DNA of 34,697 nucleotides from Gemmata sp. (GTDB lineage: Bacteria > Planctomycetota > Planctomycetia > Gemmatales > Gemmataceae), in assembly GCA_025055115.1 (NCBI GenBank), contig JANWYJ010000045.1, positions 1-34,697 on the forward strand, written 5' to 3'. Made by a program: the position numbers and the translations under genes. The notes below the pieces were generated by a model. That model saw nothing but the letters and a program-made list of their open reading frames with translations. It did not search any database and was not told where the DNA came from. This document shows positions 1,315-28,354 of the stretch, in pieces (the first letter of the stretch is position 1; every line of letters begins with the position of its first letter).

Positions 1315-1392
1315 GGGTCGTCAGCAGCCGACCGGTTGCGCCAGCCTTTGTCATCGGTAAACGGAAGTTCGGTTTTCCCTGTGAGGTCCAGA

Positions 1393-2559
1393 ATGTCCGC
1401 GGCTACTGCTCCCCGCTCAAGCCATCCCCACTTGCGTTTGGCCCGCCATCCGGTGCGTGTTTGCTTTATGATCGACCGACTCAGCCGCGCAGGCACCGAA
1501 ACACAGCTTGTGGCCTTGATCCGCGAACTCGATCGTACTGAGGTGGAACCGTCGTTGGTGCTTCTCGATGGTGAAGATGATCTGTCGCGGGCCTTGGAAC
1601 CGGCTGATTGTCCGGTGCTGCGGCTGGGAGTACGCAAGTTGCTCAGCTGGCCTACGGTGACAGCCGCGCAGCGACTGCGACGCTTCTGGCACGACTACCC
1701 ACCCGATATTCTCCAGGTCTATTTTCTCGATAGCGCCTATTTCGCAGCACCGCTGGCCAAATGGTGCGGTATCCCGAAAGTCATTCGTGTGCAGAATAAC
1801 TTGGGTTACTGGCTGACGCCGCGGCATCGCGTCCTGAACCGTCTGCTGCGACCCTTTGTCGATGTCATTGTGACGAATAGTCAAGAGGGCAAACGCTCTC
1901 TGCTGGCGACCGACCGGCTTAGCCCCGAGCGTGTCGTGGTGCTAGAAAACGGTGTGGATATTGGCCGTTTTCGCCGCTTCATGCTGCCCGATACGTCGAA
2001 AAAGCTCGTTCGCGTCGGTTGTGTGGCCAATCTCCGCGCAGTGAAGAATATCGATGGGTTGATGCACGCAGCGCAGCAGGCACTGGCTCAACACCCACAA
2101 TTGGTCTTTGAAGTGGCTGGCGATGGCGAACAACGGGAGGCGCTCGAAAGCCTCCATGCCCGTCTGGGCTTGGGCGAGCGTTTTCTGTTGCATGGCTTGG
2201 TGGCGGATGTCCCAGGCTTTTTGCGACGGCTGGATATTGCCGTGTTGCCATCGCACTCCGAAGGGATGTCGAATGCCCTGCTGGAATACATGGCCGCGGG
2301 GCGCGCGGTGATTGCGACCGATGTAGGGGCCAACCGGCAATTGCTCGATGACGGCCGTTGCGGTCTGTTGGTTCCGCCGGGCCATCCCGCCGCGATCGCC
2401 GCGGCCATCACCGAACTGCTCACCGATCCGGTCCGGGCCGCCGCACTGGGAGCCGCCGCGCGGCGGCGTGTGCAGGAACTGTACAGCCGCGAAGCGATGT
2501 GCCGACGCTTCCAGCAATTCTACCGCGCGCTGATCGATGACGAGTTGACCATAAACTGA
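1393..2559 (+). CDS. Glycosyltransferase family 4 (GT-B fold)
   Basis: A second GT4 enzyme (388 aa) lies in tandem with the gene at 97. It has an N-terminal Rossmann domain with CFMIDRLSRAGTETQL (about 24-39), the donor-domain signature VANLRAVKN (about 211-219), VAGDGEQRE, and an E-x7-E motif in SEGMSNALLEY (E290, E298) followed by TDVGANRQLL. The N-terminal 20 residues before the fold are basic and unstructured. The ATG at 1393 is preceded by GAGG at 1383-1386; a TTG at 1336 in the same frame is possible but less likely. It shares only the family motifs with its neighbour, so the pair are paralogues of old divergence rather than a recent duplication. Donor and acceptor are unknown. No terminator is evident directly after it; the next 628 bp are non-coding. 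Confidence 0.9.
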   Translation: MSAATAPRSSHPHLRLARHPVRVCFMIDRLSRAGTETQLVALIRELDRTEVEPSLVLLDGEDDLSRALEPADCPVLRLGVRKLLSWPTVTAAQRLRRFWHDYPPDILQVYFLDSAYFAAPLAKWCGIPKVIRVQNNLGYWLTPRHRVLNRLLRPFVDVIVTNSQEGKRSLLATDRLSPERVVVLENGVDIGRFRRFMLPDTSKKLVRVGCVANLRAVKNIDGLMHAAQQALAQHPQLVFEVAGDGEQREALESLHARLGLGERFLLHGLVADVPGFLRRLDIAVLPSHSEGMSNALLEYMAAGRAVIATDVGANRQLLDDGRCGLLVPPGHPAAIAAAITELLTDPVRAAALGAAARRRVQELYSREAMCRRFQQFYRALIDDELTIN

Positions 2560-2667
2560 ACAAATTGTCAGAAATATTTCTCCCCCGCGCCGCTCCAGGG
2601 TTCAGGAAACGAAAACCACAGCCGATCGCATCACTCCCCCATGCCGCCGCTACCGGGTTCGAAGAAA

Positions 2668-2746
2668 GCCAACAACGAAAAAACCAACAACGAAAAAAGC
2701 CAACAACAACAACGAAAAAAGCCAACAACGAAAAAGCCAACAACGG
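2668..2746. repeat. A-rich short tandem repeat (CCAACAACG core)
   Basis: Five copies of CCAACAACG are each joined by a run of A with or without AGC, at a spacing of about 15-22 bp. The third copy is lengthened by extra CAA triplets. The reverse strand reads as GTTGTTGGCTTTTT units, which loosely resembles the GGCTTTTGTTGG core of the 32-bp array 220 bp away; common origin is only a guess. Confidence 0.8.
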
Positions 2747-2961
2747 CGATTTCATCCGCTGCTGCTACCGAAGCGGCTAGGGTTCACCTCCGGCTGTCGC
2801 CTTGGGAGAGCCAACGGGTATCATGATCCTCTTCTCGCACCCTGGGAGCCACACCGGGGACCCGAACACCGGGAGAGTCAGCCTTCCACAGCAAGTTTCT
2901 CGAGGCCGTTTCCAAACACTGGGCCAGTTGCCGCAGACGGCTTCGCAGACGGCTTATCGTT

Positions 2962-3121
2962 CGGCTTTTGTCGGGGTTTCAAACCGTCTCGTTCGGCTTT
3001 TGTTGGGGTTTCAAACAGTCTCGAGCGGCTTTTGTTGGGGTTTCAAACCGTCTCGTTCGGCTTTTGTTGGGGTTTCAAACCGTCTCGAGCGGCTTTTGTT
3101 GGGGTTTCAAACCGTCTCGAG
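2962..3121. repeat. Five-copy 32-bp tandem repeat with internal palindrome
   Basis: Five head-to-tail units of exactly 32 bp begin at 2962, 2994, 3026, 3058 and 3090. Each starts CGGCTTTTGTTGGGG (unit 1 has TC for TT) and holds the palindrome GGTTTCAAACC at 2975-2985 and every 32 bp after; unit 2 has a final A instead of C. The last two bases of the units read TT, AG, TT, AG, GG, the fifth being followed by the run of A. There are no spacers, and 32 is not a multiple of three, so this is neither CRISPR nor a protein repeat. It sits directly beside the terminator of the giant gene. Confidence 0.95.
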
Positions 3122-3123
3122 GG

Positions 3124-3170
3124 AAAAAAAACACCGGGCGGAGGATTGGTGCCGAAGCCTCCGCCCGGTG
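3124..3170 (-). terminator. Intrinsic terminator of the giant surface-protein gene
   Basis: Read leftward, a perfect 13-bp stem (arms 3158-3170 and 3132-3144, with a 13-nt loop) is followed at once by eight T (the A run 3124-3131 on the given strand). It begins 18 bp after the TAA stop at 3188. Stem, GC content and T-tract all fit a rho-independent terminator for leftward transcription. Rightward, the stem has no T-tract after it. Confidence 0.9.
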
Positions 3171-3187
3171 CCACACTGACACATCCT

Positions 3188-6100
3188 TTACTGACGCAGG
3201 AAGTACTCCGCGTGACGCAACAGGCGCACAAGGAGCGTTTCCTGATTGACTACACCTTGGTTGAGGAAGCCGACGAAATTATCCAGCTCGGTTTGGGTCG
3301 GGTTGCGGCCCAGGTAGGTATTGAAGACCCGCGTGACGTAAATACGGCGGTACTCGGTGGAATCGAGAATTTGCCGTGCCACTTGGGTGCGAGCCGCTTG
3401 CAGTTGGCTGACCTGACCCGCCGGGATGCTGTTGAGGAAGGCCAACTGCTGGGAAGCTTGCAGATCGTCGGCACTGCGGTTGAGCAGGTCGCTGTACAAC
3501 TTGGAGATGTACGAGGCGTTGGAACTGCCCGGACCGCTGAGGGGGAAGTACGCCGAACTACCCAAGATGAAGGCCAAAACGGCTTCCAAACGGTTGCCGC
3601 TCGATTGATAGAGCGACTCGAAGTTGGCGACTTCGTTATCTGTGGGCACCCGCGGCGCGGTGGTGCTGAGGAACTGCGTGTAGTAGTCGTAGTACACCCG
3701 TTTGCGGTATTCCGCGGTGTTAATGACCGCAGCCAACGCCGCCTCGCGGGCGGGGGTGTAGCTAGCCATCAAGGCATTCAATTGCGTGCGGAACTCGGTA
3801 CCGTTGGTGTCGATCGACGAGCGACCCAGCACCCCCAGATAAATACTGCGCAGCCAGTTGAAGTTGCTGTTACCGTTGAGCCGCAGGTACTCACTGGAGG
3901 ATACCAGGGCCGCGATGACCCGTTGATCACCAGAGGGTTGGCCGGGGGTCGGAGCGGCCCGCAGCATGTTGAGTAGGTTCACCTCCGGACCACTGAAGGG
4001 GCTGATCCAGAAGGCCCGAATTTCATCCAGGTTCGGATCGGGTACGCGATTGGGCGTGCGACCCAGATAGCGCAGGAAGTACTCGTTGAGTGTGCGGGCC
4101 AAGGCCGCTTCGTTGTGGACCAGGTCCAGTGCAATGCTCAGGCGGGTTTGACCGCTGGGGAAGTTGGTGGGCGGTGGGTTGACCTCGGGTCGGACATCGC
4201 GGTAGATGCTCGCCAACCAGGTAACATTGTTGTTGTTACCGCCGAAGGTGGCATTTTGGAAGTATTCATTGCTTGCGAGCAGTTCGGCCACCAGACCGCG
4301 CACCGTCAATTGACCATTGGCGATCCGGGTGCGGGCGTTCGCCAATTCCGCCGTTGTGGGCGTGCGGCGCAGGTAACGCTGGTAATTTTCCGTAATCAGC
4401 GTATTCAGGCCATCGGTCGAGCTGACCATTTGGGTAGCCACCGTCGCCAGTGCGCTATACCGGGCCGTTTCGACCGAGCTATTGAGCGTGAAGAACGTGG
4501 CATTGTCGGGCAACCGACCGTTGGGCGACAGGCCTTGGAAGTCGCGGAAGAGGGCGAAGAGGAAGCGGCCATTGTCATTTTGGTTGACCGACAAGCGTTC
4601 ACTGAATTTGTCGCCCGGTTGGGCGATGAAGGGGAACGGCCCTGGTCGTTCACCGTTGATGGTGTTGCCGTTTTGGTTCATCGCGTTGCCGGTATTGACG
4701 TACGTTCCGTCCTGATCAACGAAATCACGCAGGTCAATCCCCTGGGCATTCGGGCCCAGAATGAGGCGGTAACTGACGTCGCGCAGCCGCGGACCAAAGG
4801 TCAGCCGGTAGGTCCGGTTGGTGGTGTCAGTCGGTCGGATCGAAATCGGCATGGCCACGCCATCGCTGCTATTGACGAAGGCCAAGGCATTCTCGGCAAG
4901 GACCAACAGCAGCACCTCGCGTTCGGCCCGGGTGTACGGCCGCCCCGCCAGAGTCCGGAAGACCCAATCGAGCCAGTTACGGTCTTTGGCGATCTTCATG
5001 ATGCCTTGCTCTTCGCCCACCAATAGCGAGGTGAATTCGCTGTTGGCATACCCAATGGCCACATCCGTGATGCCATCTTGGTTGAGGTCCCCCAAGGCGA
5101 TCGTCGTGGGGTTATTGCCAGTCAGCGGATAGGCGAAGGGTGCGTCGAAGCGGATCGTATCGGGTCCTGACGACGCCGCGGTCGTTGTGTTGTAAAGTAT
5201 CGAGACTCCGCCACCCAAGAAGTTGTTGGCCACGACCACATCGAGCCGACCATCGCCGTTCATGTCGCCCAGGCGGACCGAACGCGGATTGCTCCCGGTC
5301 GGGAAGATCGAGGTACCCGCGGTCGTGAAACTGCCACCATCGTTGCGGAAAACGATGATCTCACCGCCGGCGGCATTGGCGGTCGCGACGATGTCGAGAT
5401 CGTTGTCGGTGTCGATCCGACCGACGGCCACCGATGTGGTGGGGATATTCGTCAGCCGCGGCGAAGCGGTGAAGCTGGGTGTGCCAACGGTGCTGGTGTT
5501 GGTCAGCAGCAAGACCCCGTTATCCCCCGCCAAGACCAGATCGGGCAAGGCGTTCCCCGCGAGGTTGCCAATCGCAATTCCCTTCGGAGCCACGATTTCC
5601 GTCGCACCGGGCGTGGCATCGCCCACCTTGATTTCCGTGGGCGAACCAAACGCGCCGGTACCATCACCCAGAAGGATGTTGATGGTGTATTCATCCGCCG
5701 CATTGAGCGCGGCATTGGCCGCGACAATATCCATGTGGCCATCACCGTCGATGTCGCCCCAGGCCAAGCCAATCGGGTTGCTACCGGCATTGAAGTGCGT
5801 CGGTGTAGCAAAGCTCAATTGACCGATGCTGGAGCGGTTATTGAGGAAAATCGTCAGGGTGTCACCGTCGCCTGCGCTGCGGCCACTGTTGGCCGTGGCG
5901 ATGTCGAGTTTGCCATCGTTATTGAAGTCGGCCACCAGCAAATCGGCCGGGCGCGAATTGGCGGGCAGATTGAGGATGAGCTGAGCTGTAGGCTCGTAAC
6001 CACCACCGACTTTGCCTTGGTAGATGCGCAGTTGGTTGTTGATCGCCACCACCTTATCGAGAACCGGGACGATGGTGGGATTATCGGTTCCGCCCAGGTT

Positions 6101-9100
6101 GACGGTTCGGCCCGTGAAGTTCCCGAAGATGACCGAGGTCGCGTTCGTCCCGGCAGGCAGGGCGAAATCATTGCCGAACTTCTGATAGGCTTCCGTGGTC
6201 GAGATGATCCGGGCCACAACGTTCCGCAACAGGCCGCCACGCTGCAGAGTGTTAACGTGAACGGTGATCTCATCGCTACTGGCGCCGACCGCGGGGTAGT
6301 TGCGCCCCAGCAGGCGGTTGTACAGTGAGGCGACCAACCGCGTATGGAACTCCCGCGACAACGGGTGCAGGGGGTTCTCCAGGGCGGTGGGGCCGGGGAA
6401 GGTACCATTGAGCGACCGAGCCCCCGTGAGCAGCTGAGTGACTTGCAAGCGCGTGATTTGCCCGTTGATGAGCTGCTGCCGGAACGAAACGGCAAACGCA
6501 TCATCATCAGCCGTGTTGGTGGTGAGCAGCCCCGAGGGCCGACCGAAGAAGTCGAGCCACAGCCGGTCAAGCCAATTGTCGATATTGCCCCCGGAGAGGG
6601 TCTGGAAGTAGGGATTATCGGAAGTGATGAAGGCTGTGAAATCCAGTTCACCGGTATTCCGCATCCGGTTGTAGACCACGCCGGTGCCCGGATCGGTTTC
6701 TTGCAGAATCGCTCCGGTCACGGGATCGCGTAAGAAGAAGGTCGACAGGCCGAACTCCCGCTCCGCCGGGGTCGCATTACGACCCAGATATTGCTGCGTC
6801 AATTCATCGATCCGTTTCAGAACAAAGTCGGTGCTGGTCAGAGCCAGTAGCGACATGAGCGTGCGGGCGACGTTATTCTGATCGGCGTTGAAGGTCCGCG
6901 GATCGACCGGGCTACTGAAGGTAACGTCAATTGTCGTCAACGGACCGTTATTCACCGGAGCACTGGGGGTAACGCTGATGACCGCGGGGCCGGAGCGTGC
7001 TGTGGAGAGGACAAACACGCCGCGGCCCTGTGTCGCCGCCGCCAGCAGTTCCAGACGGGGGTTGAATTGCAAATCCACCACCGGCACAGCGGGCAATCCC
7101 GCCCCCAAGGTGGTCCACGTCTGCCCTCGATTGGTCGAGGTGAAGACGCCCCGATCTGTACCTACGTACATCCGCCCGTTGGGAGCGCCGGTCGACGGGC
7201 GGGGATCGATGATGAGTTTATAGGCGGAAACCAACGGCAACTGTCCGCTACCTGAGCCGATGAACGCAGACCACGTCGTTCCGCCATTGGTCGTGCGGTA
7301 GACCCCCGCACGGCCGACCGGCACCGAGACCATCACATACGCAACGTTCGGGTTGGTCGGATCGACCGTGATACCGTTGATGCGATACGCTACCCCGCTA
7401 CCCACCGCCGTTGGCAGGTTGTTGGTAACATCGGTGAATTGGCCGCTGATCGTGCGATAGACGCGGCCGGTATCAGTCCCAGCCCAGTAGATGCCCGGCT
7501 CCGGTGAGAAGGCCAAAGCGGAGTAGAAGCCGGCATTACCCGGCAAGACACTGCCGGGCAGCACGTCCCAGACGTTACCGCCTGTTTGCGTCACATAAAC
7601 ACGGCGGGTGCCAAAGAGCAACTCATCGTAGAAGATTGGTTGGTTCTGGGCATCGGTCCCGGCGAGGACTTTATTGGGGTTGATGGCCAAAACCGGAGCA
7701 AAGCCGGCGCTATCGACCGTGCTGATCCCGGCCGTACCCACGCCTTCGGCCCCCGCGGCGAAGCTCGCCCCGGCATCGGCCGAAAACTCGGGGATAATCG
7801 CCAAGGAGTTGCCGTTGTACTGCCAGACGCGATAAAGCGTGGTGATGGTCTCGGTGGTGGCGTTGGGAGGCAGGTTGGCGGTGACCACTTGGGTGGCGTT
7901 GGGAATACCCAGATTCCCGAAGCCAGGCACCGTCGGTCCTACCAACCCCATCGTCTGCCAGGTCAGCGTGCCGGAGGTTAACGCGGTACCGACCCCTGAG
8001 GCCGAGATATAAAACCGGTTGGGGTCCGAAGGATCAATGGCCACTGAGGTCAGGTCGGTAATCTGCAAGTTCCCGTTCAGGTCGGTGATGGTCATGCCGG
8101 GCACATTGAACGGTGGCAAGTTCGATCCCCCGCCTCCTCCGCCGCCGCCACCACCACCACCACCGGTGTCAAGAATCCCCGCGCGGCTACTGCGGAAGTC
8201 GTAACCGAACCCCAACGGAACACCCCGGAAGATGCCATTCTCAGTGCCGATGAGCAGCCGTCCCTGCGTATCAAAGACCAATTCATGAATCGAGGGTGGT
8301 AAGCGGCGCCGGTTACTGCTATCGCTGGCCCGAGCTTGTTCAATGTCGTACCAGTAGACGCCTTCGCCATTGTACGGTTGATCACCAGCGATAACATTGC
8401 CGTTGGCATCCCGTTGCGCTGGGTAACGATTATTATTGGCGGCGGCCCGGGCGGCTTTATCAATGTCGTCGCCATCGTTGGGAATCGAGCCATTGAACAC
8501 ATACGTGGTGTCGCGCATGTTCCCGGTATCGACGCGAATCAAGGCATGTTGCGGGGTGGCGCTGGTGCTGAAGCGGCGCGATCCACCCACATACACCACG
8601 TTGGCATTGCTGGGATCAACCACCAAGACGCCCACGTTGGCCCCTTCATTGCCCAGCAAAGCGATATCAACGTAGTTTTCCGTAAACCGCGCATGCCCCG
8701 GTCCTGGTTCCTTCAACATCACGCGCGTGAAGTTGAGCATGTTGTCTTTCGACTTGAACAGCCCCAGATAGGTGCCCTGATTGAACTGATTGGCAGCGCT
8801 GGACGGCGGATTGGACATCAACACATAGACAATCGCCTCATCACCAACCCGACCGTTGCCTTGAGCGATTGTCACCCGGCCAACACTGCTTCCGCTGGGC
8901 AGTGTGTTGTTGGGAATGTTGGGATTGTCGCCACCGCGTTGCTTTTCCCAACTGGTGCCGCCATCGATACTCTTCCACACCCCCGCGGTGCTTGCTGCGT
9001 TGGAGGAGGTTTGACCGATATTCCCCAAACCGATGAGTATCCGGTTGGGATTGAAGGGGTCAACGACGATATCGGTCACCGAAGCGAGCGCGGCACTGGA

Positions 9101-12100
9101 CCCCAGGGGTGTGCCGTTATCGGTCATGTTCGCGGGATTGAGCAGGTTGATCCGCTGCGAGAAGCTGCCCACGTTATTGACCGTAGTGCCATTCCAGAGT
9201 GTGCCGTTCAAGGAGAAACGGAAATCGTCGATGCGGGTGGCCGTGAAGGTGCCGTTGGCCCCTGGATAACCCGTCACACCGCTGATGCGCACTTGTTCAC
9301 CCGTGCGAACGCGGTGGAAGTTGTTCGTGCGAATGATGATCGGCCCGCCGGTGGTGCCCGTCACCTGGTTAATACTGCCGTCGGCGATCTTGACGACGTT
9401 GGGGCCGCGGGAACCGTCGTCGTAGGAGGTGACGGCGACATAGGCGATGCCGGGGTTTTGCGGGTCCACGACGATCCGCGACACCCGCGCCCCGGTGAGG
9501 ATGCCCGGGCCAGCGGCCGTCGCCCCACCAATGACTTGCCACGTGCGGCCATCATCGGTCGATTTCAAAACCCCCACCCCGGCCCGCGACGTGAAGGCGT
9601 TATCGTCCACACCCGTTGCGGCATACACGGTCCCATCGGAACCGATGGCCAGGCTGCCCACTGCAACGTTCACCAATTGCCCCGTTTGGTCGCGCACGTT
9701 GTCGGTGAGGGCTTGCCAATCGCGACCACCGTTGACCGTCCGCCACACGCCGCCGTTGGCCGAACCAATATAGATGGTGTTGCCTGTCGGATCGCGCGGA
9801 TCGACCGCAATACCCGTCACCTTGCCCGTGACCGTGTTGTAGTCGAGACCGGCGGCAGAAATGTCGATCGGCCCAGGACCGACGGCTTGCCAATTCACCA
9901 AACTGGGGCCTTGCAGGATGAACTGGAAGGTTTGCGTGACCGAATTACCCGCCTGGTCCACCACCCGCACCGGGATCGTATTGATACCCGGCAGCAATCC
10001 GGTCGGGGTAAAGGAGAAGTAGCCATTGGCATCGACGGTGTTGATGATGACGTCGTCGGCATTGCCGAAGCCGTTGTTGCCAATATCGAAGATAATCTGA
10101 CTGATATTGTTGATGCTACCATTGTCGCGCACCAGACCAACGATGGTCGGGTCGGTCGACTGCTCCAAGGTGCTGGGGCTGGTCAAGAACGTGGGATTGC
10201 GGAGATTGAGGGCCAATAGTTGCGGGGCCGTGGTGTCCTGGAAGACCGTCTGCACCCGGACATCATCGATACCGACCAAGAGCTTGCCGCGGTTGTTGGT
10301 GCTGGCTATGCGGAGGCGAATGGTCTGCCCCTTGAAGGCACTCAAATCGACGTTGCTGATCGTGATCGTGCGGGCCGTGGTGGGATCGTTGGCCTGCGTT
10401 TGGAAGACATTGAGGCGCACATCGGCACTGGCCACACTGAGGATGTTGTTGGTGGGGCTCATGATATCGACGCGCACCTGTTGGTTCGCATCGGGGGTGT
10501 TGTAATCCAAGACCGGATTGAGCGACGGATTGCTCCATTCCCCAAACGACTGCAGGAATAGCGACATCGACAAGCGCACCGAGATGGCATTCGCGGGAAT
10601 GGTAATGTCTTGGTAAATCGCATGCGAGCCGGCGTAGCTGGCATCATCGTTGGGATTGTTACCGCCACGGAACGGTTGCCGATCGTGCTGATCGAGCATG
10701 GCGCGGAAGCGGCCATTGGCCGGAGGTGGCACGGTCACGCCACTCAACGGGCTGACACTACCGGTTTGGATGTTCCACTGGCCGGCACTGCCCGGCGGCG
10801 GATTGAGCAAGCGGAACGTATTCCATCCGGTGAGATTGCCTTGTTCGCCTGTCAGGTCGCGGGCTTCAAAGTTGCCGTTGCGCAACAGGTTAACACTGAT
10901 GATGTTTCCGCCCACGTTGAAGGTCGACAGCAAGCGGATCGGGTCGCTGACAACCGCAACACTCGACGGCGGCGGGGTGTTGGTGCTGGTGCCGCCCGCG
11001 ACGCGGTAGCTATCGATCTGAGCCGCAAAGCTGCCATCCCCCACGCCATACAGGACATGCGTGTTGTTCACCGGGCCTCGCGGCGGTGTGCCCGGCGGTG
11101 GCGGCGGCGACGGCGGTGAGAAGGTCGTCGAGGTCACAATCAAATCCACGAAAGCATCGCCGTTGACATTGACCGCCTGAATGCTGTTGAGCGGCCGGCC
11201 CGCTTCCACCGTGGTGTTGAGGGCCGATTGGAAACCCGTCCCAAAGTTATTGATGAGGACGCTGACGTTGCTACTGGTCGATTCGTTGCTGCTGACGGTG
11301 GCGATATCCGCAAAGCCGTCGTTGTTGAAGTCGGCCACTGTGACGGCCCGCGGATTGGGACCTACGGACAACGTCAGAATGTTGGCCGACGGGAAAGTCC
11401 CCAAACCCGTGCCGAAAGCCACCCGGACGCGCCCGCCGTTGGGGTCATCATCGGTCACCACAAAGTCGAGGTTGCCGTCGCGGTTGAAGTCGCCCACAGC
11501 AATGGCGGTTGCCCGCGGCGTATTGCCGCCACTGCCGAAGCTCACCTGGTTGCCACCCAGCTTGCTTTGGAAAGTACCATCGCCATTGCCGAGGCGGAAG
11601 GTCACACCGCGGTTGGAGCTGCCTCCACCGCCGCCTTTCCCCCCCGTACCATTATGGGCCACAAGCAAGTCGAGATTGCCGTCGTTGTTGAAGTCCGCCA
11701 AGACCACTTGGGTCGGGTTCGTTCCCACCGAGAAACGCGTCGGTGTGCCAAACGACAGGTTGCCCCCTGTGGAGGTATTCAGGAAAACCGAGACGTTATT
11801 GTCCTGCGCACTGGCGGTGACAATATCCAGCCGACCGTCACCGTTCAGGTCTCCCAAGGCCACGGACACCGGCTGACGGCTGTTGCCGCCGGAGCCACCG
11901 ACCACCGTCGACAGCGTCGTGGGGGCACTGTAGCCGCCACCCCGCAGGCCGAGGAAAATGTTGACCCGGTTATTGGCCTTGTCCACGGCGACCAAATCCG
12001 GGATGCCATCGTTATTCAAATCGCCCACCGCGACCGCAAAGGGCGTCGGCTGAGGTGTGGTCCCGCTCAGCGGCAGATGTGTCGCGGCCAGGAAGGTTCC

Positions 12101-14425
12101 ATCTCCTTGGCCAGGTGTGCCACTGCCGGTGTAGTAAGAGAGGGTACCGCTGGTATTGTCGGTGTTGTTGGTGGTCACCAGATCGGCGATACCATCGTTG
12201 TTGAAGTCGAGGGTTGCCGACCACGTCCCGCCACTGGTGTAGTTGCCATTGCCAATCACCCCGACCAGTTGGAAGCGGTTCGCATCCAATACGGTGATCC
12301 GGAAGATGCCGTTGGCCGCGGTATTTCCGCCGACACCACTGATCCGCACCAATTGTCCGGTGAATAAGCCATGATTGGAGCTGGTGATGACCACCGGCTG
12401 ACCATTGCCGGTCACGTCGGTAATCGTGCCAGTTTTTGTGGGCGTGATGGCCACGCCGACAGGTGTGGCCCCGGTCGGCGTGACCGGCAAGGCAAAAGTC
12501 CCCGTGTTGGCGGTGTAAGTCCCGCCCAGCGGGGTGTTCTGGGTACCGTTGAGATAGAAGGAATTGGCATCCACAACGGTCACAAAGAAGGTGCCGTTGG
12601 CCCCGGTAGCTCCGCCCACGCCCGAGATGGTGATTTGTTGACCGCTGCGAAGCCCATGATTGGGACTGGTGACCAGAATGCGCGTGTCGGTGGCCGACGA
12701 CGACGTGTCTTTGGTAACGTTGGTGATGATGCCGGGAAGAGCGATCCAGGTTCCGGTGTTGGCGGTACCGGTGCCCGCGGTGTTAGTACCGTTGAGGGTG
12801 AAGGTATTGGCGTTGACAACCGTGATGTAGAAGGTCCCGTTGGCCGCGGTGAAACCGCCGACGTTGGCGATCGCCACCCGCTGTCCGGTGACCAGACCGT
12901 GATTGGGGCTGGTGATTGTGATCGGATTGGTGCCATCGCCACTGGAGGCCGTGATCAGCCCCGTTTGCAATGCCGACCGGGAAATGAAGCCCCCCGCCGC
13001 GGCATTGTTCACATAAACCAGCTCCAGGTTGCCATTGTGATTCAAATCGCGCAGCTGCAGAGCCGACGGATTGGTGACGCCCGCGCCAATTCCTGCGGTA
13101 CTCTGGAACGTACCAGTGCCATTGTTGAGCAAGGCGTAAATCTGTCCACCGCTGGCCGTCGTTGTCACCACGATGTCGCGTTCTTGACTGGTGCCGACGT
13201 TGGTGCGGACAATCCCGGTGGCCACGGAGCTGGCCGCGCTACCGGAGATAAACGTGGCGTTGAAGCTCGGTGTCGCCCCCGTGCTGGTATTGAGCAACAC
13301 CGAAACCCCGTTGCTCCCCCCCACCACCAGATCATCGAGTTCATCATCGGTGAATCGGCCCACAGCAATACTTGAAGGTGTCTGCAAGTTGGCCGGGGCA
13401 TTGGTCCCCACCGCGATCGTCGTCGCGGTGGTGGAGAATGAACCATCACCGTTGCCGGTTAACAGATAAACGACAAAGTTCGATCCGTTGAGAGTGGCGG
13501 CGGAGAAGGCCAAGTCGAGATTGGCATCTTTGTTGAATTTCCCGGCGACGATCCCGTTAATCCCACTACCCACCGAGATGTTTGTGGCGCCACCGAAGGC
13601 CAATTCTCCGGGGGTGCTGTTTTGGTTGAGGAAAATACTGACGTTGCCGGTGGCATTATTGGCCACGGCCAGGTCGAGCTTGTTATCGTTGTTGAAGTCG
13701 GCCAATACCATCGCGACCGCACCGGCCCCCGCGGGCAGGTCCAACGACAAATTCGGGGTCGTCGCGAACCCCCCGGAAGCCTGACCGAGATAGACGTTGA
13801 CGGTTGATTGCTTGTTGCTAGCGACCAACAGGTCGGCGATGCCGTCGTTGTTGACATCGGCGGACAGCACGGCTGTCGGCGCGAAGTTGGTGGTCCCCGA
13901 AGCGGGCAAGCTGATCGTCGAAACGGCACCCAGGCCATCACCGGTCAACGGAGCAGTCGAAAGGCTGCCAAAGCCCGTATTGACGTTGGCCACAACGATT
14001 TCCCCTGGCCGTGCCAAGGGATCGAGTGTGCTTTTACTGATGATCTGATCGCCGCGCAAAAACAGCGAGTAGGAACCAGCCGTCAACGCGCCCCCATTGA
14101 CCGACAAATCGTTCCGCGAAATGACGGCGACGAATGTCGCGCTGTTGTAGGAGACTTGGGCGATGTTGACCTGCGTTCCATCTGCGGCAAATAACCGATA
14201 GGTGTCGGGGTTGTCGGCCCCGAACACGTCTTCCGAGAATTGGATGGTGATGTTGGTGCCGAGAGTACCGCCAGTGCCCGGCGTCACGCTCAGTACGGTC
14301 GGTATGGCGGGAACGTCGCGTTCTTCCAGTTGTTCCAGTTCCAGTCGGCGTGGCAGACGCTTGCGTTGGGCCAGCGACCGCTTGGGGCTTGAACCGCTGT
14401 GACCGAAAATCTTGTACCAACTCAT
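3188..14425 (-). CDS. Giant secreted multi-domain surface protein (FG-GAP, BNR, DUF4214)
   Basis: This protein of about 3745 aa is probably exported and cell-surface or extracellular. After a basic start comes LELEQLEERDVPA (28-40), the planctomycete N-terminal export-type motif. Then follow a bacterial Ig-like domain (about 42-150), a long FG-GAP/VCBS block of D-x-N-x-D-G Ca-binding loops (about 175-1175) interrupted by three tandem E1-FCCH-like modules (about 490-735), a galactose-binding-like domain (about 1200-1410), a BNR/sortilin-type propeller block (about 1510-2480) with a fourth FCCH-like module and 13 consecutive glycines (2088-2100), DUF4214-like modules (about 2520-2750), a second FG-GAP block (about 2780-3140), and further DUF4214-like modules to the end. 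I see no catalytic motif; adhesion or matrix function is inference. I chose the ATG at 14425 for its upstream GAGAAAGG; the frame stays open to 14506. A terminator follows. Domain borders are estimates. Confidence 0.93.
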   Translation of the reverse strand: MSWYKIFGHSGSSPKRSLAQRKRLPRRLELEQLEERDVPAIPTVLSVTPGTGGTLGTNITIQFSEDVFGADNPDTYRLFAADGTQVNIAQVSYNSATFVAVISRNDLSVNGGALTAGSYSLFLRGDQIISKSTLDPLARPGEIVVANVNTGFGSLSTAPLTGDGLGAVSTISLPASGTTNFAPTAVLSADVNNDGIADLLVASNKQSTVNVYLGQASGGFATTPNLSLDLPAGAGAVAMVLADFNNDNKLDLAVANNATGNVSIFLNQNSTPGELAFGGATNISVGSGINGIVAGKFNKDANLDLAFSAATLNGSNFVVYLLTGNGDGSFSTTATTIAVGTNAPANLQTPSSIAVGRFTDDELDDLVVGGSNGVSVLLNTSTGATPSFNATFISGSAASSVATGIVRTNVGTSQERDIVVTTTASGGQIYALLNNGTGTFQSTAGIGAGVTNPSALQLRDLNHNGNLELVYVNNAAAGGFISRSALQTGLITASSGDGTNPITITSPNHGLVTGQRVAIANVGGFTAANGTFYITVVNANTFTLNGTNTAGTGTANTGTWIALPGIITNVTKDTSSSATDTRILVTSPNHGLRSGQQITISGVGGATGANGTFFVTVVDANSFYLNGTQNTPLGGTYTANTGTFALPVTPTGATPVGVAITPTKTGTITDVTGNGQPVVITSSNHGLFTGQLVRISGVGGNTAANGIFRITVLDANRFQLVGVIGNGNYTSGGTWSATLDFNNDGIADLVTTNNTDNTSGTLSYYTGSGTPGQGDGTFLAATHLPLSGTTPQPTPFAVAVGDLNNDGIPDLVAVDKANNRVNIFLGLRGGGYSAPTTLSTVVGGSGGNSRQPVSVALGDLNGDGRLDIVTASAQDNNVSVFLNTSTGGNLSFGTPTRFSVGTNPTQVVLADFNNDGNLDLLVAHNGTGGKGGGGGSSNRGVTFRLGNGDGTFQSKLGGNQVSFGSGGNTPRATAIAVGDFNRDGNLDFVVTDDDPNGGRVRVAFGTGLGTFPSANILTLSVGPNPRAVTVADFNNDGFADIATVSSNESTSSNVSVLINNFGTGFQSALNTTVEAGRPLNSIQAVNVNGDAFVDLIVTSTTFSPPSPPPPPGTPPRGPVNNTHVLYGVGDGSFAAQIDSYRVAGGTSTNTPPPSSVAVVSDPIRLLSTFNVGGNIISVNLLRNGNFEARDLTGEQGNLTGWNTFRLLNPPPGSAGQWNIQTGSVSPLSGVTVPPPANGRFRAMLDQHDRQPFRGGNNPNDDASYAGSHAIYQDITIPANAISVRLSMSLFLQSFGEWSNPSLNPVLDYNTPDANQQVRVDIMSPTNNILSVASADVRLNVFQTQANDPTTARTITISNVDLSAFKGQTIRLRIASTNNRGKLLVGIDDVRVQTVFQDTTAPQLLALNLRNPTFLTSPSTLEQSTDPTIVGLVRDNGSINNISQIIFDIGNNGFGNADDVIINTVDANGYFSFTPTGLLPGINTIPVRVVDQAGNSVTQTFQFILQGPSLVNWQAVGPGPIDISAAGLDYNTVTGKVTGIAVDPRDPTGNTIYIGSANGGVWRTVNGGRDWQALTDNVRDQTGQLVNVAVGSLAIGSDGTVYAATGVDDNAFTSRAGVGVLKSTDDGRTWQVIGGATAAGPGILTGARVSRIVVDPQNPGIAYVAVTSYDDGSRGPNVVKIADGSINQVTGTTGGPIIIRTNNFHRVRTGEQVRISGVTGYPGANGTFTATRIDDFRFSLNGTLWNGTTVNNVGSFSQRINLLNPANMTDNGTPLGSSAALASVTDIVVDPFNPNRILIGLGNIGQTSSNAASTAGVWKSIDGGTSWEKQRGGDNPNIPNNTLPSGSSVGRVTIAQGNGRVGDEAIVYVLMSNPPSSAANQFNQGTYLGLFKSKDNMLNFTRVMLKEPGPGHARFTENYVDIALLGNEGANVGVLVVDPSNANVVYVGGSRRFSTSATPQHALIRVDTGNMRDTTYVFNGSIPNDGDDIDKAARAAANNNRYPAQRDANGNVIAGDQPYNGEGVYWYDIEQARASDSSNRRRLPPSIHELVFDTQGRLLIGTENGIFRGVPLGFGYDFRSSRAGILDTGGGGGGGGGGGGGSNLPPFNVPGMTITDLNGNLQITDLTSVAIDPSDPNRFYISASGVGTALTSGTLTWQTMGLVGPTVPGFGNLGIPNATQVVTANLPPNATTETITTLYRVWQYNGNSLAIIPEFSADAGASFAAGAEGVGTAGISTVDSAGFAPVLAINPNKVLAGTDAQNQPIFYDELLFGTRRVYVTQTGGNVWDVLPGSVLPGNAGFYSALAFSPEPGIYWAGTDTGRVYRTISGQFTDVTNNLPTAVGSGVAYRINGITVDPTNPNVAYVMVSVPVGRAGVYRTTNGGTTWSAFIGSGSGQLPLVSAYKLIIDPRPSTGAPNGRMYVGTDRGVFTSTNRGQTWTTLGAGLPAVPVVDLQFNPRLELLAAATQGRGVFVLSTARSGPAVISVTPSAPVNNGPLTTIDVTFSSPVDPRTFNADQNNVARTLMSLLALTSTDFVLKRIDELTQQYLGRNATPAEREFGLSTFFLRDPVTGAILQETDPGTGVVYNRMRNTGELDFTAFITSDNPYFQTLSGGNIDNWLDRLWLDFFGRPSGLLTTNTADDDAFAVSFRQQLINGQITRLQVTQLLTGARSLNGTFPGPTALENPLHPLSREFHTRLVASLYNRLLGRNYPAVGASSDEITVHVNTLQRGGLLRNVVARIISTTEAYQKFGNDFALPAGTNATSVIFGNFTGRTVNLGGTDNPTIVPVLDKVVAINNQLRIYQGKVGGGYEPTAQLILNLPANSRPADLLVADFNNDGKLDIATANSGRSAGDGDTLTIFLNNRSSIGQLSFATPTHFNAGSNPIGLAWGDIDGDGHMDIVAANAALNAADEYTINILLGDGTGAFGSPTEIKVGDATPGATEIVAPKGIAIGNLAGNALPDLVLAGDNGVLLLTNTSTVGTPSFTASPRLTNIPTTSVAVGRIDTDNDLDIVATANAAGGEIIVFRNDGGSFTTAGTSIFPTGSNPRSVRLGDMNGDGRLDVVVANNFLGGGVSILYNTTTAASSGPDTIRFDAPFAYPLTGNNPTTIALGDLNQDGITDVAIGYANSEFTSLLVGEEQGIMKIAKDRNWLDWVFRTLAGRPYTRAEREVLLLVLAENALAFVNSSDGVAMPISIRPTDTTNRTYRLTFGPRLRDVSYRLILGPNAQGIDLRDFVDQDGTYVNTGNAMNQNGNTINGERPGPFPFIAQPGDKFSERLSVNQNDNGRFLFALFRDFQGLSPNGRLPDNATFFTLNSSVETARYSALATVATQMVSSTDGLNTLITENYQRYLRRTPTTAELANARTRIANGQLTVRGLVAELLASNEYFQNATFGGNNNNVTWLASIYRDVRPEVNPPPTNFPSGQTRLSIALDLVHNEAALARTLNEYFLRYLGRTPNRVPDPNLDEIRAFWISPFSGPEVNLLNMLRAAPTPGQPSGDQRVIAALVSSSEYLRLNGNSNFNWLRSIYLGVLGRSSIDTNGTEFRTQLNALMASYTPAREAALAAVINTAEYRKRVYYDYYTQFLSTTAPRVPTDNEVANFESLYQSSGNRLEAVLAFILGSSAYFPLSGPGSSNASYISKLYSDLLNRSADDLQASQQLAFLNSIPAGQVSQLQAARTQVARQILDSTEYRRIYVTRVFNTYLGRNPTQTELDNFVGFLNQGVVNQETLLVRLLRHAEYFLRQ

Positions 14426-15447
14426 CGAAGTGGCCTTTCTCGAAGGAGTAGCGGAGTACTTGTGGTCTCCGCGAATCCGAGAGTGTTCAATCCCAGAGTT
14501 CCGCAATACCCTGACGGGTGAAAGTCCAAAACGTCCCAGAGTTCCCGCATGCTAGCGCCCCGCGACGCCAGCGATGGGAATGGCGTTGCTGTCGGTTGTA
14601 CCTGCGGACCCCCAACGCAGGCACACAGCGTTTTGTGGGGGCGTTCTCCGCGGATAACGAGTGGGGCATCCACCACAACGAGTCGTTCGTGGATGGAATT
14701 ACACGAGGTGCGGCCACTGAATCGATTCGTAAGATGATTCCGGAAATCCGTCGTGTGCCGAACCCCTTTTTCTCCCTCCCGTGGGCGGTGTTGGCCGCTT
14801 GGGGGCAACTCAGCTAACACCGCGACAGCCGGAAGGTTTCGTTTTCTGAATGTCTGCTGCCAGAATCGCGCGGGATTCTTGTCTGGGCGAAAATCCGCTC
14901 CGCAACGGTTGGGTGTGGGTACAAACCGTGAGGCGAATCTGAACAATAAATTATGAAAAGCCCGTGCCGACGCAGCAACGGCGTTTTGCGAATTTCGGCC
15001 AGATCGCAATTGTGACGTCGGAACGCCCACCCCTGCTCCGTCCTTCACAAAACGCTGTTTTTCCGTGGAGCTCGAAAAGGTAGAAATCACATCGTTCCGG
15101 CTGGGCGGTTGTCGTCAACAAACCTCGCTTTCTTCCTGCGACGGTACCGGGGATGTGGCGGATTGATGCGTATCTTTGTTTCTGTCGGCACAAGCATCAT
15201 TCGGGGTGGAAGGGGACGAACCGTTGGCACCCTTTCGGCCTGCGCCGCTGGTGTTATCGGCACAGGCCGGCGAACTCGACCGGACTTGGCCAGAAGGATC
15301 GCCAGTGCCCCGCGGACAGCCGGCCGGGTCGCTGCGATGGTGTGCTCTGAGTCCAGGCTCGCAGGGCCTACACTCCGAGCGTTGTCTTGGCATTCTGCGG
15401 TTTTGGCCCACTGGGGACGGCACCTGTGGCCAACGACCAAGGCCGCA
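14426..15447. other. Long non-coding stretch between serS and the giant gene
   Basis: I find no supportable gene in these 1022 bp; the open frames are Arg/Pro-rich and lack family features. It must hold the leader and probably the promoter of the giant gene, but I see no convincing -35/-10 pair. It contains an inverted repeat built on GCGTTTTG (see the separate entry) and a related direct copy, ACAGCGTTTTGTG, at 14625-14637. Confidence 0.5.
14977..15059. repeat. Spaced inverted repeat (GCGTTTTG arms)
   Basis: Arms at 14977-14992 and 15044-15059 are reverse complements at 14 of 16 positions, with a 51-bp spacer. The right arm holds CACAAAACGCTGT (15046-15058), whose exact reverse complement also occurs at 14625-14637. 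It could be a regulator site or chance; the spacer is long for a terminator and there is no T-tract. Confidence 0.4.
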
Positions 15448-22544: not shown

Positions 22545-22634
22545 GTTGCATCCATCCTGTGGGTTGGTCCGGTGGCCCTCCGGAAGCCGTCGGGGCCGCC
22601 TTCGCGCTTCTACCTGCGCGGACCCCAGGGCGAT

Positions 22635-22666
22635 GATATTCTTCGATCAGGATATTCTTCGATCAG
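22635..22666. repeat. 16-bp perfect tandem duplication
   Basis: GATATTCTTCGATCAG occurs twice head to tail at 22635-22650 and 22651-22666, in the gap between the plsX stop and the fabD start. The two copies are identical. A third partial copy (GATA) follows. No function is evident. Confidence 0.9.
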
Positions 22667-22680
22667 GATACCGGCTTGGC

Positions 22681-23931: not shown

Positions 23932-23960
23932 ATGTTAGGACCGACGCGCAACACAGTCAA
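23932..23960 (-). promoter_or_regulatory. Candidate sigma-70 promoter for rpmF
   Basis: Reading leftward, TTGACT (complement of 23955-23960; 5 of 6 to consensus) is followed after exactly 17 bp by TAACAT (complement of 23932-23937; 4 of 6). The rpmF start is 42 bp beyond. The -35 hexamer lies at the edge of a 32-bp tandem duplication that repeats the hexamer, but only this copy has a -10-like sequence at the right distance. Confidence 0.5.
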
Positions 23961-24013
23961 GCAACGCCCCTGCGGGCTTGGAACACAGTCAAGCAACGCC
24001 CCTGCGGGCTTGG
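23950..24013. repeat. 32-bp perfect tandem duplication upstream of rpmF
   Basis: Two identical 32-bp units run from 23950-23981 and 23982-24013. Each starts AACACAGTCAAGCAACG and ends GCGGGCTTGG. Each holds AGTCAA, which on the leftward strand is the -35-like TTGACT. The unit length equals that of the array at 2962, but the sequence is unrelated. Confidence 0.95.
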
Positions 24014-24163
24014 CACGCGGCGCGGACCACGGGAGGCGGCTGGACCGCACCCCCGACCTCACGGCCGCGGAGCCGAGCCGCGTCACCATCGCCTGTGGAC
24101 CGGACACCAAAGGCCGGCATTCTCGCCACCGAAATTCTAAGTGATTGTGTGTGAAGATGTTGT

Positions 24164-24197
24164 GTGAAATATCGTTGGTTGTGAAATATCGTTGGTT
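24164..24197. repeat. 17-bp perfect tandem duplication upstream of the HIT gene
   Basis: GTGAAATATCGTTGGTT occurs twice head to tail at 24164-24180 and 24181-24197, followed by a shorter GAGTT repeat. It lies about 70-100 bp before the HIT gene start, where promoter elements would be expected. Confidence 0.9.
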
Positions 24198-24266
24198 GAG
24201 TTGAGTTGATCGATAGGGTGTGTGGCAAGGCATCGGCACCGCTTATTTTCCTCAGGGAGTCGCCGC

Positions 24267-28224: not shown

Positions 28225-28354
28225 CACGGCTTGTACCAAGGGGGCAACTGGAAATCGCTGCTTGTGACAATACGGCTGACATTTGACAATACGGCTGACA
28301 TTCGCGCTGCCCTCGACACACGGGTTGTGCCAAGGGGGAAACCGAAAAGCGCTG
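28225..28354. repeat. Nested repeats upstream of the cation transporter gene
   Basis: A 19-bp unit, TGACAATACGGCTGACATT, is perfectly duplicated in tandem at 28265-28283 and 28284-28302. It is flanked by a diverged direct repeat at 28225-28260 and 28319-28354 (about 30 of 36 identical), with the shared core CCAAGGGGG. The second 19-bp copy creates an exact TTGACA at 28283-28288, but no -10 sequence lies 16-18 bp on. Confidence 0.85.

Follow-up and report, generated by a model that had tools for sequence, protein, structure and literature searches.

A five-unit 32-bp array in a Gemmata genome as the apparent tandem copy of one end of a dispersed MITE-like element

A tandem array of five 32-bp units in Gemmata sp. 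(contig JANWYJ010000045.1; by the window we mean the whole stretch of 34,697 nucleotides that was analyzed) appears, from sequence comparison, to consist of tandem copies of one terminus, the right one, of a dispersed element of about 77 bp with imperfect palindromic symmetry, and not to be a free-standing array of binding sites. We consider it very likely that a MITE-like 77-bp element lies here between converging genes and that its right 32 bp were duplicated, probably by slippage, followed by duplication of a 64-bp block. This element-end reading replaces a tempting, unsupported regulatory one.

The array, its neighbors and the element

TRF reports the array with a period of 32, 5.1 copies at 2957-3119, 93% matches, no indels and a score of 284. 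An exact-match search places the palindrome GGTTTCAAACC at 2975, 3039, 3071 and 3103, with a mutated copy, GGTTTCAAACA, in unit 2; the five-unit array with one mutated palindrome that an earlier note had described from the letters is thus confirmed. The same note had the units ending in TT, AG, TT, AG and GG, which holds for the first four, whereas the fifth ends in AG. Beyond 3121, the sequence continues as GGAAAAAAAA.

On one flank of the array is a glycosyltransferase gene (1336-2559, forward strand) and on the other the gene for a 3772-aa FG-GAP/DUF4214 protein (3188-14506, reverse strand), and these directions agree with the placement between converging transcripts, one gene ending at 2559 and the other at 3188. 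The terminator of the 11-kb gene, said to adjoin the array, has a good candidate in an inverted repeat (I1) at 3122-3175 on the reverse strand, a neighbor that lies outside the element. It contains a hairpin with a DNA folding z of −5.0, followed by eight T on the reverse strand, and is probably the terminator of the gene for the 3772-aa protein. A simple terminator scan of 2500-3400 listed none, probably because the 13-nt loop of this hairpin exceeds the loop limit of 8 in the scan. The 3772-aa protein has 11 FG-GAP_3 stretches together with DUF4214 and phycobilisome-linker-like matches, and is probably a surface protein.

In BLAST searches of the genome, the array gave 17 further short matches, and a longer query matched 12 other places over 69-99 bp; these matches start around 2899, ahead of the array, and lack it. 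The earlier note had seen the array but had overlooked this leftward continuation, from 2902, into a larger dispersed unit. The window copy of the element (2902-2990, forward strand) matches the family model R1, from whose training set it was excluded, with 79.2 bits (E 1.2e-18 for the whole genome, 8.5e-21 for the window), and is 89 bp long owing to an internal 12-bp duplication. It begins with the left terminal inverted repeat GAGGCCGTTTCCAAACACTGGG (2902-2923, forward strand, from the family alignment A1), followed by the tandem duplication of CGCAGACGGCTT (two units, family D3, 2932-2955, forward strand), a 12-bp unit that is single in the closest copy, C82. The last 32 bp of the window copy (2959-2990, forward strand) are its right end and at the same time unit 1 of the array, so that units 2-5 (2991-3118, forward strand) represent four additional tandem copies of this end.

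Across the family, the left terminal inverted repeat of the 77-bp element reads GAGG.CGTTTGCAAACACCGGG and the right one, read inward, GAGAC.GTT..AAAACCCGAC. The palindrome GGTTTCAAACC is the GTTT-NN-AAAC core at the tip of the terminal inverted repeat. With no gene, a length below about 500 bp and imperfect terminal inverted repeats, the element has the size and the ends of a MITE.

Copies, mobility and distribution of the element

The family alignment A1 comprises 14 of the 18 BLAST loci; the window copy, two copies with internal duplications, and C68, a near-duplicate of C11, were omitted. The 14 copies align over 77 columns with a mean column identity of 92%, and copies of equal length are pairwise 81-97% identical (mean 88%, 91 pairs). 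R1, the covariance model built from these 14, detected 19 copies in the genome with strong E values (3.5e-26 to 1.2e-18); 14 of these had built the model and five had no part in building it. C68:1-909 (L045) and C11:1-930 (L048) are a duplicated segment of 0.93 kb, 93% identical, which lies at two contig ends and carries a copy of the element; the strong copies therefore number 18 independent ones. Open reading frames of at least 70 aa in the duplicated segment are short and have no assignment.

Beyond the 19, R1 gave six more matches at E 1.7e-9 to 6.8e-6; at E ≤ 10 it had 40 matches altogether, with 150 of 2298 first-look candidates scored. The weaker matches are of similar length and mainly have the tips in common. 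A pattern for the tip, GAGNNNGTTKNNAAAC, has 44 matches in the genome, compared with 9 for the reversed control. A broader sequence model for diverged members, R2, yielded five more copies (E < 1e-6) in 1.174 Mb of stretches of this genome that are free of R1 matches, one of them with a tip already listed for the GAGNNNGTTKNNAAAC pattern. By rough extrapolation, the total for this genome may be some 40-60 members.

Two copies of a diverged member, C15 and C51, are identical in 77 of 77 positions, and a comparison of 80 bp of their flanks showed no relation; the element has therefore moved, in the manner of a MITE. The 19 strong copies and this identical pair at unrelated sites also show the dispersal expected of MITEs. 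Both C15 and C51 are preceded by CTA and followed by TAG, which is compatible with a TA duplication. Among the 19 core copies, 17 carry a T at the second position ahead of the element and 13 an A at the second position behind it, but left and right flanks are not repeats of one another, and no consistent target-site duplication, a MITE feature that may be lost with age, was seen. Direct flanking repeats scoring 28-29 are present in three of 30 copies, where the 99.9th percentile of cross-locus pairs is 20, and two further copies exceed the 99th percentile (17). One of the three is C22 (L066, about C22:175833-176030), where the insertion apparently lies within a diverged element of greater age, the right half of which seems to have been duplicated around it.

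MITEs are mobilized by the transposase of a related insertion sequence, and the mobility of the element would likewise have been driven by a transposase. In the genome of the window, PF01609, PF01797, PF13340 and PF13358 had no match at E ≤ 0.001; for PF01797 the assembly searched is 98% complete and the control was positive in 5 of 14 genomes. Two relatives of the genus, G002 (L113) and G010 (L111), carry an 870-bp insertion sequence with the terminal inverted repeat GAGTGTGTTTTGAAAC, which at one end of the G010 insertion differs by one base. This insertion sequence, which we take to be IS5-like, is flanked by 3-bp TNA target duplications (TCA in G002, TAA in G010), and the G002 insertion contains a transposase-like reading frame with a frame shift. 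Its ends have the same form as those of the element, GAG-NNN-GTTT-NN-AAAC, but other letters, and the 3-bp TNA duplication belongs to the insertion sequence; it thus illustrates a possible form of a mobilizer.

Among the other genomes searched, the family is sparse. Searches with R1 in 18 further genomes from the genus gave nothing at E ≤ 0.01, and R2 was likewise unmatched in 793 kb of sequence sampled from eleven relatives within the genus. In the family of the host, 2 of 95 genomes match R1 at E ≤ 1e-4, including the genome of the window. G096, from another genus of this family, has a copy first detected by R1 (E 2.0e-7) and found again as the one match of R2, which was not trained on it, in 171 kb whose contig was sampled because it contains the copy. 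In 58 other genomes, the totals for GAGNNNGTTKNNAAAC are lower than in the genome of the window and mostly near their controls, the highest being 21 against a control of 23. The excess over the control is strongest in G038 (20 against 12) and G010 (12 against 3); in G010, seven of the twelve matches are ends of the kind found on the 870-bp insertion sequence. A 20-base core pattern had 0 matches in genome_contigs and a two-ended pattern 0 in both genome_contigs and viral_contigs, these exact-pattern scans spanning part of the variation among copies and the collections possibly omitting this genome and very near ones.

We also considered and rejected an origin from a plasmid or phage, 2902-3121 of the window having no match in the plasmids and phages collections, and membership in a known RNA family, the window having no Rfam match at gathering score. 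A search of the open-access literature returned nothing on miniature inverted-repeats together with Gemmata; since it was based on words and not on the sequence of the element, the family may still have been published. Overall, the array looks like an unremarkable case in which one end of a MITE-like element of narrow distribution was amplified in tandem.

Prokaryotic MITEs are likewise short, gene-free, largely intergenic elements with terminal inverted repeats, a predicted fold and tens of copies (PMC10969869). Unlike MITEs as they are portrayed there, the element lacks a clear target-site duplication, the genome search turned up no parent insertion sequence, and its inverted symmetry spans most of only 77 bp. 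A MITE with a tandem minisatellite has been described in Porphyromonas gingivalis as BrickBuilt, with units of 23 bp and no spacers (PMC4596501). BrickBuilt resembles the element in being an intergenic MITE in strains of one species and in holding a minisatellite; the latter is described as a part of BrickBuilt, whereas here it occurs in one copy and would be the copied right end (PMC4596501).

Origin of the five units

Units 3 and 5 of the array are identical and the two-unit blocks 2-3 and 4-5 agree in 63 of 64 bases, which fits a duplication of the end followed by duplication of a 64-bp block; the latter step had already been surmised from the unit ends in the earlier note and is borne out by this comparison. 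In the proposed sequence of events, a MITE-like, non-autonomous element whose terminal inverted repeats are imperfect would have inserted between the two converging genes, after which its right 32 bp would have been tandemly duplicated, probably via replication slippage between the short TCG matches at both unit edges, and next the two-unit block of 64 bp. The palindrome GGTTTCAAACC, perhaps a former contact site of the transposase, would have been carried along passively, and we infer that the array has no present function. Slippage, which had been named as the plain alternative to binding, is the best explanation, its route through TCG microhomology being suggested by the unit edges.

Small tandem duplications abound in this genome, and the array is therefore likeliest a by-product of DNA copying. 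In 1.174 Mb, we counted 226 tandem duplications with units of 13-60 bp (90 perfect, 136 imperfect), against 4 in 400 kb of G017 and 4 in 393 kb from ten further genomes of the genus, which makes the density about 19 times that of the genus samples, given that our stretches (L180-L239) were picked by position, not at random, and that coding fractions were unmatched. That most of them are imperfect argues against an explanation by assembly artefact alone. How large the excess appears varies with the detector: for units of 11-60 bp, the counts in 400 kb each were 107 for this genome and 20 for G017, of which 13 are 12-mers, an approximately fivefold difference. G096, which also carries a relative of the element, is raised as well (13 duplications in 171 kb). 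Of all these observations, the frequency of short tandem duplications most deserves follow-up, and this genome, duplication-rich compared with the sampled relatives of its genus, is a natural system for studying how duplications originate.

A more far-reaching reading gives the genome the leading part: an unusual state of replication or repair would scatter short duplications, mostly with units of 14-25 bp, at a density many times that of its relatives in the genus, an orphan superfamily of hairpin-like elements of about 77 bp, for which no transposase was recognized, would grow and decay in the same way, and the array would be an extreme product of this process. We hold this to be possible though unlikely. 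Small tandem duplications of their own, at the end or internally (units of at least 11 bp), occur in 8 of 37 elements, the window included, and in 25 of 215 flanking windows (Fisher p 0.11); as this difference is not significant, the element is not shown to provoke duplications. An enrichment inside elements obtained with a looser detector (12 of 37) was discarded, since several of these cases are 10-bp matches of the element's own sequence.

REP, RNA and binding-site readings

That the 77-bp family belongs to the REP/REPIN type, with a tyrosine (Y1) transposase as its mobilizer, rather than being a MITE that goes with a DDE insertion sequence, seems to us distinctly unlikely. It is short and dispersed, consists of two imperfectly inverted halves and has tens of copies in one species among those searched; yet with PF01797 unmatched in the genome there is no candidate RAYT, and the GTAG tag is absent from the ends of the element. 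REPINs share with the element the two inverted halves that form a hairpin and the dispersed extragenic location, and also occur in tandem clusters (PMC3116915); the element differs in lacking a tyrosine transposase match or REP tag and in having as its tandem unit a part of itself, without flank (PMC3116915). Tagged REPs have been reported in Planctomycetes, and those with a CGTC tag are said to be without a dedicated transposase (PMC3733652). The GTAG- and CGTC-tagged REPs are palindromic dispersed repeats like the element, but in the description given there they are stem-loops of 20-40 bp with an unpaired tag at one end (PMC3733652), whereas in the element CGTC sits inside the terminal inverted repeat and not as an unpaired tag.

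We find it improbable that the elements are hairpins kept for a function in RNA, namely protection of 3′ ends or termination, even though 34 of 36 loci have no called gene over the element and its transcripts are predicted to form one long, imperfect hairpin. A consensus structure for the 14 copies comprises 22 predicted pairs, none of which (0/22) shows a compensatory change, and the element has no T run. The orientation of neighboring genes is mixed, with 9 tandem, 8 convergent and 4 divergent arrangements at the 21 classifiable intergenic loci (of 36 other loci, two were covered by genes and 13 unclassified, using a crude gene caller). In DNA folding, two intact core copies were modestly better than shuffles (z about −2.3), while the window copy and three diverged copies were hardly or no better (z −0.8, −0.6, −1.2 and +0.2). 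A structure for the broader family was rejected as well, the A2 consensus fold being without any base pair. The fold and neighbor data give no pointer to a function.

The earlier note proposed a phased array of protein-binding sites, with the palindromes all facing one side of the DNA. Such an array, which might serve a repressor, nucleoid or partition-type protein, is very improbable indeed, although the five units are of equal length, the palindrome is intact in four of them and the array is intergenic. The genome has no second array, and the partial BLAST matches elsewhere are single and separate. When the genome and its relatives were searched, as had been suggested as a check, the unit recurred in the genome as single element ends, which accounts for it, and the core family had no match in the 18 genus relatives. 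Outside the array, the exact 11-mer GGTTTCAAACC occurs seven times in the genome against four for the reversed control; of the five examined, those at C2 and C82 are lone ends of the element and those at C10, C12 and C49 are non-elements, the other two lying at C65 and C97. Nor do the unit lengths of duplications in this genome follow the helical period: for 225 units of 13-60 bp in 1.2 Mb, the 10.5-bp periodicity was R 0.04, a value reached by 92% of jittered sets, and with a cut-off of 16 bp (n=184) it was 0.18 (20% of jittered sets), or 0.21 at 11 bp (7%). An early phasing signal (R 0.23, n=114) was biased by its lower cut-off at 11 bp. As every exact tandem array keeps a constant phase, equal spacing alone says little. 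The case shows how a minisatellite that mimics a phased array of binding sites can arise from one terminus of a small inverted-repeat element.

Other short tandem duplications in the window lie at 2665-2746, 22633-22671, 23945-24020, 24161-24201 and 28261-28305, and a second, imperfect repeat tract with the consensus CGAAAAAACCAACAA is found upstream of the element, at 2660-2745.
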